A stretch of 64,000 bases of DNA from Clostridia bacterium (lineage in GTDB: Bacteria; Bacillota; Clostridia; Christensenellales; Aristaeellaceae): positions 35,685 through 99,684 of the forward strand of contig JAFRBK010000014.1 in assembly GCA_017404985.1 (NCBI GenBank), in the 5' to 3' direction. The notes under the pieces are model-generated. The model was given only the letters and a program-made list of their open reading frames with translations. It did not search any database and was not told the origin of the DNA. A program made the translations under genes and the position numbers. Below are positions 866 through 42,282 of this stretch, piece by piece. How positions within the stretch are numbered: the first letter of the stretch is position 1; every line of letters starts with the position of its first letter.

Positions 866-1090
866 ATGCCATTGTTCCGGAAAAAAACCGCTGTCGGCCG
901 TGCTGCTTACGATCGAAAAAAAAAGACACCGGCCATTCGGGCCAGCATCTGTACAGGGGAAAAGGTTGCCGGATTCAGGGATAAGGAAACTGGCAGCTTC
1001 GAAGAAATCATGCTGATTCGGTCTGAAAAAGACCTGGCTCTGTTTCGTGAGCAGTTCCGGATCGAGGAAGAAATACCGGTCTTTTATTAA
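866..1090 (+). CDS. Small basic hypothetical protein
   Basis: This is a 74-residue protein, starting at the ATG at 866 behind a GAGGAAAGGAAG box. The N-terminal half is rich in lysine and arginine (MPLFRKKTAVGRAAYDRKKK) and the C-terminal half is acidic, ending EEEIPVFY. No known domain was recognised. The stop codon overlaps the stop of the convergent recombinase gene by a few bases, so the two transcripts meet tail to tail with no room for a terminator between them. Confidence 0.5.
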   Translation: MPLFRKKTAVGRAAYDRKKKTPAIRASICTGEKVAGFRDKETGSFEEIMLIRSEKDLALFREQFRIEEEIPVFY

Positions 1091-2190
1091 CCTTCCGTTC
1101 TGAAATCAGGGTCTCCCGGCAGATGAACATGCTCGGCGGCTTTTCTGCGCCTTGCATCCGTCATATCCGCATAGTGCTTCCGGGTGGTATCGACAGAACT
1201 GTGGCCGAGGACATCGGCGACCAGATAAATATCACCGGTCTCATGATAAAGATTCGTTGCGTACGTGCTGCGAAGCTTATGGGGGCTGATTCGGCTTTTT
1301 AACGGCGCGGCGGCGGCCGCGTATTTTTTTACCAGATTCTGCACGGCCCGCTGGGTAATGCGGCGCCGCTGCAGGCTGAGAAAGAGGGCGTCCTCATGCC
1401 CGGGAAGCGCTTCGATCGTATCCCGTTCCTCCAGGTATTCCGCCAACGCTTCCGCCACTTCAGGCGGAAAATAAAGCACGACCTGATTGCCGCCCTTCCT
1501 TGTGACAAGAAAAGCATTGTTTTCCAGATCCACGTCATTGATATTCATTCCAACGCACTCGCTGACCCGGATTCCGGTGCCAAGAAAGAGGCTGAGCATC
1601 GCAAAATCCCTTTTGGATGTGAGTTTCTGGTATTTTTGCTGGCTTTTGCTCATTCCTGATCCGCTCTGCGCCTCGTCCAGCATTTTTTCCATTTCCGCCC
1701 GGGTCAGGCGAATAATCGGCTTTTCATGAACTTTGGGGAGGGGAACCAGTTCGGTTACATTGGAAGCAATCCGTTGGTTTTTAAACAAATAATCATAAAA
1801 AGACCGGATGGCACAGAGTTTGCGTTTGATGGACAATTCATGATTGACGATTTCTTTTTTCGGTACCGAATCGTCTTCCGGATTTTTGAGGTAGTAGGTC
1901 AGGTATTCCGAATAGGAGGTCAAATCAGCCCTCGTCAGCTTTTCCAGGTCAGCATCTGTCATAAGGCGCGGATCCTTATCAGAAAAAGCCAGCCGTTCAC
2001 GGCAAAGAAACTGGAAAAACGTTCTCAGATCGATAGCGTAGGCCAGCCTGGTAAACGTACCGGTTGTCAGAGCGATTCCACGAAGGAAATCAGAGCAGGC
2101 TTCCGGAAGCTCACGGCAGATCGAACGAATCTGCAGAATCCGTTTTGCGTCCACTTCATCCCTGTAATGGTTTTTCTTATCCGCTGCCAA
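1087..2190 (-). CDS. XerS-like tyrosine site-specific recombinase
   Basis: A 367-residue tyrosine recombinase. The N-terminal SAM-like core-binding domain covers roughly residues 25-155, with 'YLTYYLK' and 'SIKRKLCAIRSFYDYL'. The catalytic domain follows, with the expected residues: Arg in GTGIRVSE, Lys in VTRKGG, HKLR, LGHSS and the nucleophile Tyr in KHYAD. The length, and the insert between the domains with SKSQQKYQKLTSKRDFAMLS, resemble the single streptococcal recombinase XerS more than XerC or XerD (about 300 residues). I prefer the TTG at 2190 because an AAGGAGG box precedes it by 11 bases. The more upstream TTG at 2232 has no ribosome binding site and lies inside the inverted repeat at 2230-2265. 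It probably resolves chromosome dimers, though a decayed integrase is possible. Confidence 0.85.
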   Translation of the reverse strand: MAADKKNHYRDEVDAKRILQIRSICRELPEACSDFLRGIALTTGTFTRLAYAIDLRTFFQFLCRERLAFSDKDPRLMTDADLEKLTRADLTSYSEYLTYYLKNPEDDSVPKKEIVNHELSIKRKLCAIRSFYDYLFKNQRIASNVTELVPLPKVHEKPIIRLTRAEMEKMLDEAQSGSGMSKSQQKYQKLTSKRDFAMLSLFLGTGIRVSECVGMNINDVDLENNAFLVTRKGGNQVVLYFPPEVAEALAEYLEERDTIEALPGHEDALFLSLQRRRITQRAVQNLVKKYAAAAAPLKSRISPHKLRSTYATNLYHETGDIYLVADVLGHSSVDTTRKHYADMTDARRRKAAEHVHLPGDPDFRTEG

Positions 2191-2229
2191 TGGATCCGGT
2201 TCCTCCTTTTCCGGAATCAAAAATGGGCT

Positions 2230-2265
2230 CAACTATTCGTAAAACTATGGTTTAGCGAATAGTTG
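2230..2265. repeat. Imperfect inverted repeat next to the recombinase gene, candidate dif-like site
   Basis: The 10-base arms CAACTATTCG (2230-2239) and CGAATAGTTG (2256-2265) are perfect complements. TAAA (2240-2243) and TTTA (2251-2254) extend the symmetry, with one unpaired G and a 7-base centre ACTATGG. The two-arm layout with a 6-8 base centre is that of a Xer recombination site. The inner core resembles what I recall of the streptococcal XerS target difSL (AAAACTAT then two bases then TTT). It could instead be an operator for the recombinase gene. Confidence 0.55.
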
Positions 2266-2285: not shown

Positions 2286-2768
2286 TTAAGGCTTTTGTTC
2301 CTCCGGCATATCCGGATTCAGGCGGCGATATTCATCGATTGCCGCACGCGCCAATTCATCACAGCGAATATTTTCTGCGTGATCGGCATGCCCTTTTACC
2401 TTAATAAAGGTGACCTGATGCTTTCTGGTCTGCGCCGCCAGAATAAACCATAGGTCCTGGTTTTCAACCGTCGTTCCGTTGCTGGTCTTCCATCCGTTCC
2501 TTTTCCAGTGGTCGATCCAATGTTCGTTAAAAGCCTGAACCAGGTAATTGCTGTCGGAATACAATTTCACATTGCAGGGCTCCTTCAGGGCCCCGAGGCC
2601 GCTGATCGCCGCAAACAGCTCCATCCGGTTATTGGTTGTGCCGGCCATATACCCGCTGATTTCCTTCCTGTGCGGGCCAAATTCGAGAATCGCCGCCCAG
2701 CCTCCGGGGCCCGGGTTTCCGCTGCAGGCGCCATCCGTATAGATATTGACCTGTTTTCTTTCACTCAT
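2286..2768 (-). CDS. rnhA: Ribonuclease HI
   Basis: This 160-residue protein hydrolyses the RNA strand of RNA-DNA hybrids. It has the family signature YTDGACSGNPGPGG near the N-terminus (first catalytic Asp), NNRMEL with the catalytic Glu, LYSDSNYL with the second Asp, KVKGHADHAEN with the flexible-loop His, and CDELARAA with the last Asp. I chose the ATG at 2768, which has GGAG 11 bases upstream and gives the usual short N-terminus. An ATG at 2789 overlaps the proC stop as ATGA and would add seven residues through translational coupling. It probably forms a two-gene operon with proC. Confidence 0.93.
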   Translation of the reverse strand: MSERKQVNIYTDGACSGNPGPGGWAAILEFGPHRKEISGYMAGTTNNRMELFAAISGLGALKEPCNVKLYSDSNYLVQAFNEHWIDHWKRNGWKTSNGTTVENQDLWFILAAQTRKHQVTFIKVKGHADHAENIRCDELARAAIDEYRRLNPDMPEEQKP

Positions 2769-2785
2769 ACAGCCGAACGCTCCGT

Positions 2786-3601
2786 TCATTTGGATTTGGA
2801 CATTTCACGGCTTTTTTGCGCACAGGCCTTCATCGCATCCATAATCGCTGCCCGGAAACCTTTTCGTTCCAATTCTTCCACGGCTTCGATGGTGGTTCCG
2901 CCCGGAGAGCAGACCGCATCCTTCAGTGCTGCCGGATGCGTTCCTGAAGAAATGACCATGAGTGCGGAGCCGAGAACGCTCTGTGCTGCCATTTCATATG
3001 CATATGTTCTCGGCAATCCCTCGGCAACGCCCGCATCGGCCATGGCTTCAATCATCATATATACATAGGCAGGCGAACTGCCGCTGATGGCCACTACGCC
3101 GTCAAAAAGCCGTTCAGGAAGGACTTTGGTTTTCCCGACAGAATCGAAAATCCCTTTTGCGTAATCAAAATCCTCCCTGGAAAAAGTCGTTTCATCACAT
3201 AGCGCGGTCATCCCTTCACCAACCAGCGCCGGCGTATTGGGCATCACTCTCATATAGGTCGCATCTGTTCCGGCCAGCGCTTTGGACAGCATGCCAACCG
3301 TCCATCCGGCGGCAATGCTCAGCACAGCCTTCCCTCTCAATGCAGGCCGGATTTCATCAATGACTTCCTGAATATAAATCGGTTTAACCGCCAGAATAAT
3401 CAGATCGGCCCGTTCCGCTGTTTCACGGCAATCCCTGGCCAACGCGATCCCGGGAATGTCTTCGCCGAGTTCCCTCATCCTTCTTGCGCTGGCATCATAT
3501 GCGATGATTTGTGCAGGCTTTACATAATCGGCTTCAACAATTCCGCGAAGAATCGCGGATCCCATATTTCCTGTGCCGATCATGCCGATGGTTCTGATCA
3601 T
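2786..3601 (-). CDS. proC: Pyrroline-5-carboxylate reductase
   Basis: A 271-residue enzyme for the last step of proline synthesis, reducing 1-pyrroline-5-carboxylate with NAD(P)H. The N-terminal Rossmann motif is GMIGTGNMGSAILRG. AVKPIYIQEV and MRVMPNTPALVGEGM are family landmarks, and the C-terminal dimerisation domain carries SPGGTTIEAVEELE. The length is normal. The ATG at 3601 follows GGGGAGG by 9 bases. It is separated from hslU by 84 bases that hold a promoter-like element and a hairpin, so it probably starts a separate transcript with rnhA. Confidence 0.95.
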   Translation of the reverse strand: MIRTIGMIGTGNMGSAILRGIVEADYVKPAQIIAYDASARRMRELGEDIPGIALARDCRETAERADLIILAVKPIYIQEVIDEIRPALRGKAVLSIAAGWTVGMLSKALAGTDATYMRVMPNTPALVGEGMTALCDETTFSREDFDYAKGIFDSVGKTKVLPERLFDGVVAISGSSPAYVYMMIEAMADAGVAEGLPRTYAYEMAAQSVLGSALMVISSGTHPAALKDAVCSPGGTTIEAVEELERKGFRAAIMDAMKACAQKSREMSKSK

Positions 3602-6944: not shown

Positions 6945-9075
6945 TGCTGTCTCCGTCTTCTTCAGTTACAATCGGTTCCGTTTTATACCGGCAGTTTTCA
7001 TTGGAGCACAGATGAAGCGTTTCACCCCTGTTGTTTCTTTTCTCCACCATATAGGAGCCGCATTTGGGGCAGGCTTCCGGTACCGGCTTATCCCATGAAA
7101 CGAAATCGCATTCCGGATAGCCTTCACAGCCATAGAACTTTCTGCTGCGTTTGCTGATCTTCTCCAAAAGGCGTTTCCCGCATTTTGGGCAGGGTGTATC
7201 CAGGTACTTCAGCACAGGCTTCGTATTTCTGCAGGCCGGGAAATTGGGGCAGGCCAGGAACTGCCCGAATTTCCCCATTTTATATACCATCAGCGCTCCG
7301 CATTGATCGCAGACAACGTCGCTGATTTCGTCATGGACCTCCACTTTTTCCACTTCCGCTTCAGCGGTTTTCAGGGTCTTTTCAAATTCGGGATAGAAAT
7401 CCCGCAAAACCTGTTTCCAGTCCAGCGTGCCGTCTTCCACTTCATCCAGGCGGGACTCCATGGACGCTGTAAACTCCGTATCCACGATATCGCTGAAATA
7501 CTTTTCCATCATCTGGGTAACCATAATCCCAAGCTCCGTAGGATACAGGCGTTTCTTCTCCCTCGAAACATATCCTCTGGAAATAATCGTGCTGATGGTC
7601 GGGGCGTACGTGGAAGGGCGGCCGATGCCGTTTTCTTCCAGCGTGCGGACCAGGCTTGCCTCCGTATACCGGCTCGGCGGCTGGGTGAAATGCTGCTCGC
7701 TCTCCACCTTCACAATTTCCACAGGCGATTTTTCTGTCAGCAGCGGAAGCGTCATTTCATTGGATTCCGCAGTTTCATCCTGGCCTTCTTCGTACAGCAT
7801 GGTAAACCCGGCTTCGGTTTTATGCTCGCCATAGAACCGAAGGCCGACATGTTTGCCCTCAATGCAGGCGGTCATGGTCTGGTATTCGGCAGGCGCCATC
7901 TGGCTGGCAACAAACCGGTTGTAGATCAGGCGGTAAAGCATAAACTGGTCTCTGCTCAGCGAATTCTTAATGGATTCTGGCGTTCTCGTTACATCCGTCG
8001 GCCTGATTGCTTCATGGGCATCCTGGGCATTCTTCCGCCCTTTATACTCATTCACCTGTTCAGAAAGATATTTGGCGCCGTAAGCTTCGGGAATATAAGC
8101 CCGCAGGGCAGCAAGCGCCTCATCGCTGATGCGGACGCTGTCTGTACGGATATACGTCACAAGGCCCTGTGTGCCTTCTCCTTCCAAATCCACGCCTTCA
8201 TACAGCTGCTGAACAATCTGCATCGTTCGGGATGTCGTGAAGTTGAGCTTGCGGCTGGCTTCCTGCTGCAGGCTGGACGTGGTAAACGGCGGTGAGGGCA
8301 TCCGGTGTTTTTCCTTGTTTTTTACTTCTGTAATCACAAACTGATCCTTTTCGATCATTTTCCGGATGCGGTCCGCTTCCTCCGCGTTGCTGACGGAAGC
8401 TTTTTCATGATCGATGGTGTTCAGCCGTGCGGTAAACGTCGCCTTTTTTCCTTTGCCGCTTCCTGCCATCTGGCAATTGGCGGAAATATCCCAGTACTCC
8501 TCAGGAATAAACGAATTAATCTCATTTTCCCGATCCACCACCATGCGTGTCGCCACGCTTTGCACGCGGCCGGCAGACAGGCCTTTTTTCACTTTTGCCC
8601 AAAGCAGCGGGCTGATTTTATAGCCCACCAAACGGTCCAGGGCCCGCCGCGCCTGCTGCGCGTCAATTCTGGCCAGATCGAGCTTGCGGGGATGCTTGAT
8701 GGCAGCCTGGACGGCTTTTTTTGTCACCTCGTTGAATTCAATCCTGCACGGTTCATCATCGCTGACGCCAAGGACGTGATACAGATGCCAGCTGATGGCT
8801 TCCCCTTCCCGGTCAGGGTCTGTTGCAAAAAACACATGCGAAGCCGCCTTGGCCTCTTTTCTGATTTTGCTTAAGATGTCTCCCCTTCCCCGGATCGTGA
8901 TATATTTCATTGCAAAATCGTTGTCTGTATCAACGCCGAGCTGGCTCTTTGGCAAATCACAAACGTGCCCCTGCGAAGCTTCCACCTTGTACCCTTTTCC
9001 GAGATACCGGCTGATTGTCTTCGCCTTGGCAGGTGATTCCACGATAATCAGTTTCTGTTTTCCCGTCGTTGCCAT
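6937..9075 (-). CDS. topA: DNA topoisomerase I
   Basis: A 712-residue type IA topoisomerase that relaxes negative supercoils through a 5'-phosphotyrosine intermediate. The Toprim domain begins KLIIVESPAKAKTI and includes TDPDREGEAISWHL. The active-site Tyr lies in TYIRTDSVRIS. Three C-terminal four-cysteine zinc ribbons follow (CDQCG..CPNFPAC, CPKCG..CEGYPEC, CPKCG..CSNENC). It lies 16 bases from the end of dprA and is translationally coupled to trmFO. This is the standard Firmicutes dprA-topA-trmFO order. Confidence 0.97.
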   Translation of the reverse strand: MATTGKQKLIIVESPAKAKTISRYLGKGYKVEASQGHVCDLPKSQLGVDTDNDFAMKYITIRGRGDILSKIRKEAKAASHVFFATDPDREGEAISWHLYHVLGVSDDEPCRIEFNEVTKKAVQAAIKHPRKLDLARIDAQQARRALDRLVGYKISPLLWAKVKKGLSAGRVQSVATRMVVDRENEINSFIPEEYWDISANCQMAGSGKGKKATFTARLNTIDHEKASVSNAEEADRIRKMIEKDQFVITEVKNKEKHRMPSPPFTTSSLQQEASRKLNFTTSRTMQIVQQLYEGVDLEGEGTQGLVTYIRTDSVRISDEALAALRAYIPEAYGAKYLSEQVNEYKGRKNAQDAHEAIRPTDVTRTPESIKNSLSRDQFMLYRLIYNRFVASQMAPAEYQTMTACIEGKHVGLRFYGEHKTEAGFTMLYEEGQDETAESNEMTLPLLTEKSPVEIVKVESEQHFTQPPSRYTEASLVRTLEENGIGRPSTYAPTISTIISRGYVSREKKRLYPTELGIMVTQMMEKYFSDIVDTEFTASMESRLDEVEDGTLDWKQVLRDFYPEFEKTLKTAEAEVEKVEVHDEISDVVCDQCGALMVYKMGKFGQFLACPNFPACRNTKPVLKYLDTPCPKCGKRLLEKISKRSRKFYGCEGYPECDFVSWDKPVPEACPKCGSYMVEKRNNRGETLHLCSNENCRYKTEPIVTEEDGDSNE

Positions 9076-41532: not shown

Positions 41533-42246
41533 TTGAGAAAAGGGTTTATTCGGATGGTGTCGGTGGCGCTCGCCTTTCTTTTTCTTGTCCGTCCATCCGC
41601 TTTCGCCGATTTTGCGTTTTCGGAAGAGCGTTTTCAGGGGGATTTTTCCACAGCGAACCTGGATCGCATCATTCGTGAATATGAACTGTTTGATGGCTGG
41701 TACTGGACGACGGAAGCCAACGTTTCCCAGGATTTCCACGGCCGTGAAAACTGCCCCGGCTGGACGAAGACCACCGAAAGCCTTGGCTACCGGCGGTATC
41801 TGGACGGCTGGTACGGCTGCCGCTGGAGCGTGGACCGCCTGCTGCCCACTTCTCCGGGCCGCGGAGGCTACGGGGAATGCTTCGGGTTCGCCCAGTTCAT
41901 CGGCTATCTTCTTTCCGGCGATGTCAACCCCCAGCATCACTGGCCCTTTTTCTATTCCGTGAAATCCGCCAAAGGCCTGAAAGTCGGCGATATCATTCGG
42001 ACAGAGTATACCTGGAAAGGAAAACCCGTCAGCCACAGCGCGGTGGTTTACGCCATTTTGGACGGCCGGCTTCTGTTCCTCCAGGTGTCCGGCAGCCAGT
42101 ATAACCGGATTTCCATCGGTTCCTTCAGCGACGGCCATCTGAAGGACATCCGGACGGAGGAGGATGTCGCGAAGCTGCCGTACCTGAAAATCAGCCGAAG
42201 CAAGCTGAATCAACCGGTTGCAAAAGATATTTCGGCAAAAAAATGA
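41533..42246 (+). CDS. Secreted protein with possible CHAP/NlpC-like cysteine peptidase fold
   Basis: A 237-residue protein. The TTG start at 41533 has GGGAGG 10 bases upstream. A signal peptide (1-25) ends at PSAFA-D. The mature part has YGECFGFAQFIGYLL (a Cys at the head of a helix, about residue 115) and VSHSAVVYAIL (His near 168), in the order and spacing seen in papain-like amidases of the CHAP/NlpC class. That assignment rests on pattern only. Other features are many Trp and Tyr residues. It is transcribed divergently from a PucR-type regulator and ends at a strong hairpin. Confidence 0.65.
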   Translation: MRKGFIRMVSVALAFLFLVRPSAFADFAFSEERFQGDFSTANLDRIIREYELFDGWYWTTEANVSQDFHGRENCPGWTKTTESLGYRRYLDGWYGCRWSVDRLLPTSPGRGGYGECFGFAQFIGYLLSGDVNPQHHWPFFYSVKSAKGLKVGDIIRTEYTWKGKPVSHSAVVYAILDGRLLFLQVSGSQYNRISIGSFSDGHLKDIRTEEDVAKLPYLKISRSKLNQPVAKDISAKK

Positions 42247-42270
42247 TCCGGGCCCTTTGGCCCGGATCAT
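42237..42270 (-). terminator. Strong terminator between the secreted-protein gene and the ABC ATPase gene
   Basis: A perfect 12-base stem (42243-42254 with 42259-42270) surrounds a 4-base loop. On the minus strand it is followed by seven T residues (A-tract 42237-42243), so it mainly ends the ABC ATPase transcript. On the plus strand the T-run is weak. Confidence 0.85.
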
Positions 42271-42282
42271 CCTTTGTCCGGA

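Follow-up and report, generated by a model that had tools for sequence, protein, structure and literature searches.

The dif site acted on by the XerCD pair is laid out as 11-6-11. Chromosome dimer resolution by a single recombinase is described, in the part of the literature drawn on here, for streptococci and lactococci, epsilonproteobacteria, Legionellales and archaea. In the streptococcal and lactococcal system, XerS/difSL, one recombinase of ~356 amino acids is paired with a site beside its gene at the terminus, and that site is described as 31 bp long, its centre measuring 11 bp and its arms being unequal (PMC5357621). Among the titles and abstracts listed by full-text searches of the open PMC literature, none dealt with a clostridial system of this type or with dif sites next to terminase genes in phages.

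The locus considered here lies in a window of 64,000 nucleotides (the whole stretch of DNA that was analysed) and combines an XerS-like recombinase gene with a palindrome just upstream. Judged from sequence, it very probably represents a novel form of chromosome dimer resolution by one recombinase in these Clostridia, and phages of similar habitats carry their own versions of the palindrome. At a probability of about 0.9, we take the palindrome to be the chromosomal dif site and the adjacent gene to encode the housekeeping Xer recombinase that resolves dimers.

The recombinase gene and the adjacent palindrome

The minus strand of the window carries, in order, topA, trmFO, hslV, hslU, proC, rnhA and the tyrosine recombinase gene, of which proC and rnhA were named by family call and topA, trmFO, hslV and hslU from their translations. 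The recombinase open frame occupies 1087-2232 on the minus strand and its likely start is the TTG at 2190, preceded by AAAGGAGG; the homologue in genome G009 has an ATG at the codon matching this TTG and is likewise 367 amino acids long, which bears out the 367-residue tyrosine recombinase of the original prediction. The gene appears intact, as R208, K232, H304, R307, H330 and Y340 are invariant across eight aligned homologues and correspond to the R-K-H-R-H/W-Y catalytic set given for tyrosine recombinases (PMC5357621). The best NCBIfam model is XerS (NF003462), which aligns over nearly its full length (profile positions 9-356 of 360) at 190.9 bits, below its cut-off of 267; the XerC, XerA and XerD models score 152-160, and the recombinases of relatives reach 191 and 170.7 bits with the XerS model, also under the cut-off. 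Solved structures among the relatives of this protein are those of XerD, XerA and XerH.

A xerC/xerD pair, a search for which had been proposed as a check, was not found. No XerD reached the cut-off in 121 order genomes, under a strict threshold that only 4 of 14 controls pass, and the two recombinases of XerCD/dif were not recovered in this set, though an XerC/D-like protein of ~300-335 amino acids, scoring 207-280 bits and thus below the cut-off, occurs in 8 of the 121 (G021, G048, G025, G125, G134, G087, G122 and G037). Most often a single frame of ~345-470 amino acids accounts for the matches at E 1e-40, which 97 of the 121 contain. The genus member G002 encodes an XerA-like protein of 327 amino acids (208.7 of 220 bits), and the XerD-like protein of G021 (L033 1489-2376, 280 bits) seems by eye to be without catalytic residues, with GMK for GMR and NTLRN. 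The window's own genome, 85% complete, holds five tyrosine-recombinase genes; three of the other four were profiled (L004 was left out), and these are integrase-like, with at most 94.5 bits to XerA.

The imperfect inverted repeat that had been placed upstream of the gene is present, and its arms are complementary at 14 of 16 positions (10 paired, 2 unpaired, 4 paired) as foreseen, but its loop is 4 nt rather than 7, and it does not overlap the gene start as had been supposed: 39 nt separate the repeat from the TTG, and 20 nt separate it from the end of rnhA on the other side (Table 1). As a recombination site the palindrome reads better as 12-6-12 than as 16-4-16. A search for 16-nt arms that allows up to 2 mismatches and a loop no longer than 12 yields 5 matches (3 separate repeats) in the window and 0, 0, 1 and 6 in four Markov windows. 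The palindrome alone is therefore weak, because a stretch of 64 kb not uncommonly contains repeats this good, and it is conservation and position that serve as the evidence. Two more inverted repeats of similar quality lie in the window at 7238-7275 and 42239-42274.

Table 1. Coordinates of the features at the locus, numbered within the window
Feature	Position	Strand	Basis
Tyrosine recombinase gene, XerS-like, 367 aa	1087..2190	-	translation, profile search, alignment
Candidate dif site core, 12-6-12: CTATTCGTAAAA CTATGG TTTAGCGAATAG	2233..2262		repeat search, conservation, position
Whole inverted repeat CAACTATTCGTAAAACTATGGTTTAGCGAATAGTTG, 16-nt arms, 4-nt loop	2230..2265		repeat search
rnhA (ribonuclease HI), other flank of the site, outside the system	2286..2789	-	family call

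Conservation among relatives

The arms and the spacing of 6 are conserved, with a core consensus of CTATTCG-YW-AAA N6 TTT-WR-CGAATAG and an asymmetric centre that is CCAYAG in most genus members. In the first set of 31 genomes the recombinase orthologue is present in 25 (14 from the genus and 11 from the order), and the site accompanies it in 24 of these, the window's own genome included; G030 is the exception, and within the genus the site is found in all 14. Five genus genomes without the gene, each at most 85% complete, are also without the site, except G006. There (G006:C10, L044 10393-10422) one arm of the dif-like site has diverged, and the site sits inside a mobile element that has an integrase and a helicase-like gene, near a leuS-like gene.

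When the draw was widened to 297 order genomes, 198 matched the pattern at up to 2 mismatches, usually in one copy (186 once, 12 twice), and the reversed pattern, used as a control, had no match in the same genomes at that threshold. At 3 mismatches the reversed control has a single match each in G049 and G313, which are the same genome, and therefore only matches with 0-2 mismatches were relied upon. The comparison across relatives that the original prediction had called for thus finds the repeat conserved. In one genus the site is accompanied, at ~1.8-2.7 kb, by another that is less conserved (G176:C12:25902 and 27715; also G264, G122 and G285), and in G267 the second site has the same centre as the first.

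Of the 99 non-matching order genomes, 22 were picked by hand and checked, and 18 of them hold the orthologue at E 1.3e-81 or better. In 12 of these 18 (G053, G228, G280, G217, G109, G155, G073, G032, G097, G056, G042 and G090) a variant 12-6-12 palindrome lies at most 1.5 kb upstream of the gene, its arms symmetric at 10-12 of 12 positions and its score 19.9-31.7; shuffled sequence, 800 kb in all, scored 17.2 at best. The arm changes occur jointly on both sides (CTCTTCG/CGAAGAG, CTATGCG/CGCATAG, CTTTTCG/CGAAAAG and CTCTGCG/CGCAGAG). No variant palindrome was seen in the piece read for the other six (G270, G052, G047, G064, G030 and G113). In G270, a genus member that is 96% complete (G270:C1, L428 ~2630-2670), the left arm is lost and what is kept is the centre CATAG with the right arm; rnhA and xer still flank this half site, which is broken in its centre, where exchange would occur, and either a true rearrangement or an error of assembly may account for it.

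Linkage to the gene and position at the GC-skew switch

In named genomes, at least 118 stretches match the site, from taxa that include Christensenella, Butyrivibrio, Eisenbergiella, Enterocloster and many Lachnospiraceae and Clostridia MAGs; Christensenella LT700187.1 belongs to the window's own order, the Christensenellales. Eighty of these stretches were examined, and 32 of them have no xer homologue within the stretch; nine records from that group were searched further and the orthologue was present in all nine. In the remaining 48 the site is always 5' of xer and in the same orientation, at a distance of 29-4843 bp. Three Butyrivibrio records (L305, G358:C13 and G359:C25) hold a recombinase 31-33% identical; that of L305, at 31% and counted among the 48, lies 99 bp from a site, perhaps on a second replicon.

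This constant order, together with a distance of 40-120 nt between site and gene in the window and most genus members, is also the arrangement of an operator through which the recombinase or some other regulator controls the recombinase gene, and the original prediction had allowed for such regulation. Placement beside the gene, as in XerS/difSL, is the general finding, but the sequence of the site is kept where the two are parted: an aldo/keto reductase-like gene stands whole between them in G009 (L046 3246-4370) and G003 (L045 3183-4298), 5.2 kb lies between them in AP025576.1, and 54 kb in G020, where the site is at 64,306 (CTTTTCGCAAAACACGGCTTTTGCGAAAAG) and the recombinase at 118,055. The site also occurs in phage contigs that have no recombinase gene nearby.

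There is reason to think that what the site follows is the replication terminus. GC skew turns from positive to negative at the site in G019, LT700187.1, AP025576.1 and G020; the turn is gradual around the site in G002 and G012, and placed only coarsely in G025. In G019 it is sharp, from +0.135 in 105-125 kb to -0.132 in 127-147 kb with the site at 126 kb, and in LT700187.1 the skew goes from +0.020 to -0.191 at the site, the other switch lying at 0.87-1.0 Mb, about half way round. The change in AP025576.1 is from +0.053 to -0.094, and the site stands at 49.6% of the record from a DnaA-like frame (~base 560); the return switch, at 6.27-6.6 Mb, is away from that frame, and measured from the skew origin the site is at ~37-41% and not half. 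G002, a single 3.41-Mb contig sampled at 40 points, turns from positive to negative between 850-870 and 935 kb, with the site at 881 kb and finer bins near zero from 850 to 915 kb. The skew turns back near 2.6 Mb, roughly half way round the chromosome, and a lone stray sample at 2.21 Mb is positive. The dnaA gene of this genome (G002:C1, 1,306,313-1,307,602) is 425 kb from the site and ~1.3 Mb from the skew-inferred origin. G012 turns gradually around its site at 255 kb, where skew is near zero for tens of kb, and the switch of G025 can be placed only between 160 and 230 kb, with the site at ~194 kb. On the window's own contig the cumulative GC skew peaks ~20 kb from the site, so that the skew switch anticipated by the original prediction is on or near the site in relatives but is offset on the contig for which it was proposed.

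The motif GAGAAGGG, which we take to be the SRS of B. subtilis, shows polarity towards the site, with counts of 27/3 in G002, 19/3 in AP025576.1, 3/0 in G049 and 2/0 in G019, and purine skew contributes to these counts. A palindrome in about one copy per chromosome (12 of the 198 matching genomes have two) at the skew switch is what is generally looked for in a dif site, and that is what is found here.

G020 is the strongest test of position, as there the site tracks the terminus rather than the gene. Over the 4.3 kb to the left of the site the skew is +0.019 (bins at 52-60 kb are slightly negative, -0.03) and over the 4.3 kb to the right it is -0.083; it stays negative from the site to the last sample at 240 kb, and the recombinase lies inside that arm. 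Given that the site is on the switch and the gene is 54 kb off, the site is a marker of the terminus rather than an operator, and we regard control of the recombinase gene as a very unlikely explanation of the palindrome.

Still less probable is that the palindrome is a transcription terminator or RNA hairpin ending rnhA. It begins shortly after that gene in the window and also follows rnhA in G019, G009 and G003, but the stem is A+T-rich with no U-tract directly after it (AGCCCATTTTTG, rnhA sense strand), the sequence itself is conserved between families beyond what pairing needs, and the neighbour of the G022 site, named from its translation, is not rnhA. It is equally hard to credit that a mobile element uses the palindrome for attachment and the gene as its integrase, since, common as tyrosine recombinases beside inverted repeats are in such elements, and even with the same arms in phage contigs, the pair is found order-wide, mostly in one copy, at the terminus and among housekeeping neighbours (rnhA, proC).

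A chromosomal dif site accommodates these observations, and the predicted one-recombinase dimer-resolution system with a co-located site is supported by the conserved site, its skew position and the absence of any XerD above its cut-off in the order genomes profiled; our confidence is high in the site and, by its position, in its predicted function. Homologous recombination would join sister chromosomes into a dimer whose dif copies, one per unit, would meet at the division septum. Two recombinase protomers per site would bind the near-identical 12-bp arms and, presumably under the control of FtsK, cleave the site and exchange strands across the 6-bp centre in two steps via a Holliday junction, resolving the dimer into monomers. 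The asymmetric centre and the small differences between the arms would set direction and the order of cleavage.

One protein clade with a recognisable 12-6-12 site occurs in the order of Christensenella and in the Lachnospiraceae, which are major gut bacteria. The site allows the terminus to be marked in many draft genomes, and its variants form a natural library for studying how one recombinase picks strand order.

Phage copies and comparison with known systems

In IMG/VR, 95 stretches match the arms with a 6-bp centre, and their centres differ; 80 were examined (L136-L215). As controls in the same collection, the reversed pattern and a centre of 5 had no matches and a centre of 7 had 3. No close homologue of xer is present in any of the 80 viral stretches, although L155 holds a weakly similar frame (27%), and when named phages were searched by BLAST with one 30-mer, weak partial matches were all that came back. 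In 60 of the 80, at least one of five packaging-type families occurs within three frames of the site on either side, and 29 have small- and large-terminase-type genes both present, the usual phage order being small subunit, site, large subunit. The site is 5' of large family A in 29 of 29 cases and of large family B in 14 of 14, and at the 3' end of the small-type families in 24 of 31 and 12 of 14. A PHROGs scan of four of the five families confirmed one member of each large terminase family; for the small-type families, one family A member gave a weak match (E 4.5e-6), and a second family A member and a family B member gave none. The two large-terminase families are not joined by BLAST, and the terminase families have no match in the 80 named-genome stretches. 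A few of the IMG/VR stretches may be host DNA, as L201 adjoins a lexA-like gene that also flanks host xer.

With the phage sites it becomes testable whether host Xer serves tailed phages in circularising or resolving their genomes rather than in integrating them. A tentative answer, to which we give slightly less than even odds, is that many tailed Clostridia phages carry a private copy of dif in the packaging module, at which the host recombinase would circularise the incoming, terminally redundant genome or resolve concatemers or dimers to monomers; a private centre may keep the phage from recombining into host dif. The centres fall into 45 kinds in the 80 phage stretches and 36 in the 80 host stretches, with 2 in common between these unmatched sets of phages and hosts. 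Two half-degenerate copies of the site occur at terL-portal, one in G049, 494 kb away from the dif of that genome, and one in G111, and each has a centre unlike the dif centre of its own genome. The odds are kept below even because comparison with the centre of a phage's own host is possible for these two prophage copies only, both of them differing. Integrase-less integration at host dif, as by IMEX, was considered for the phages and is disfavoured. A tyrosine recombinase of their own is present in 17 of the 42 site-bearing viral records searched, many records being fragments.

Private sites of this kind have precedents. Phage P1 has loxP beside pac, a recombination site for circularising or monomer reduction, and the plasmid sites cer and psi serve for monomer resolution. 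Each is the private site of a phage or plasmid, as is proposed for the phage dif-like sites, but P1 brings its own Cre, and cer and psi use XerCD with accessory proteins.

Among the chromosomal systems, XerCD/dif is like the present one in that each chromosome has a single short palindrome close to the skew switch, and differs, as described, in its two recombinases, 28-bp site and other arm sequence (PMC3025954). XerL/dif of the Legionellales has one recombinase and long uninterrupted inverted arms of 10 and 12 bp, its site and gene can be far apart and a mobile element uses the site, but it belongs to another phylum, and the likeness is to the published description rather than to an XerL sequence (PMC9765430). 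XerH/difH of Helicobacter and Campylobacter is described as one recombinase of ~360 amino acids with its gene nearby in most species, and the difH core TTGAAAACTATAATTTTCAA resembles TTCGTAAAACTATGGTTTAGCGAA, whereas its arm sequence is otherwise different and the protein is distant (XerH 5jjv, E 7.7e-15; PMC2731167). XerS/difSL shares with our locus the single recombinase and the site by the gene at the terminus, provides its best NCBIfam model and has a similar arm form, TTTCCGAAAA, but the score is well short of that model's cut-off, the site of the clade is 12-6-12 instead of the longer difSL with its 11-bp centre, and in this clade it may sit 5 to 54 kb from the gene (PMC5357621). We conclude that the system is a dif of the one-recombinase type, like XerS/difSL, with a recombinase below the XerS cut-off and a different site.
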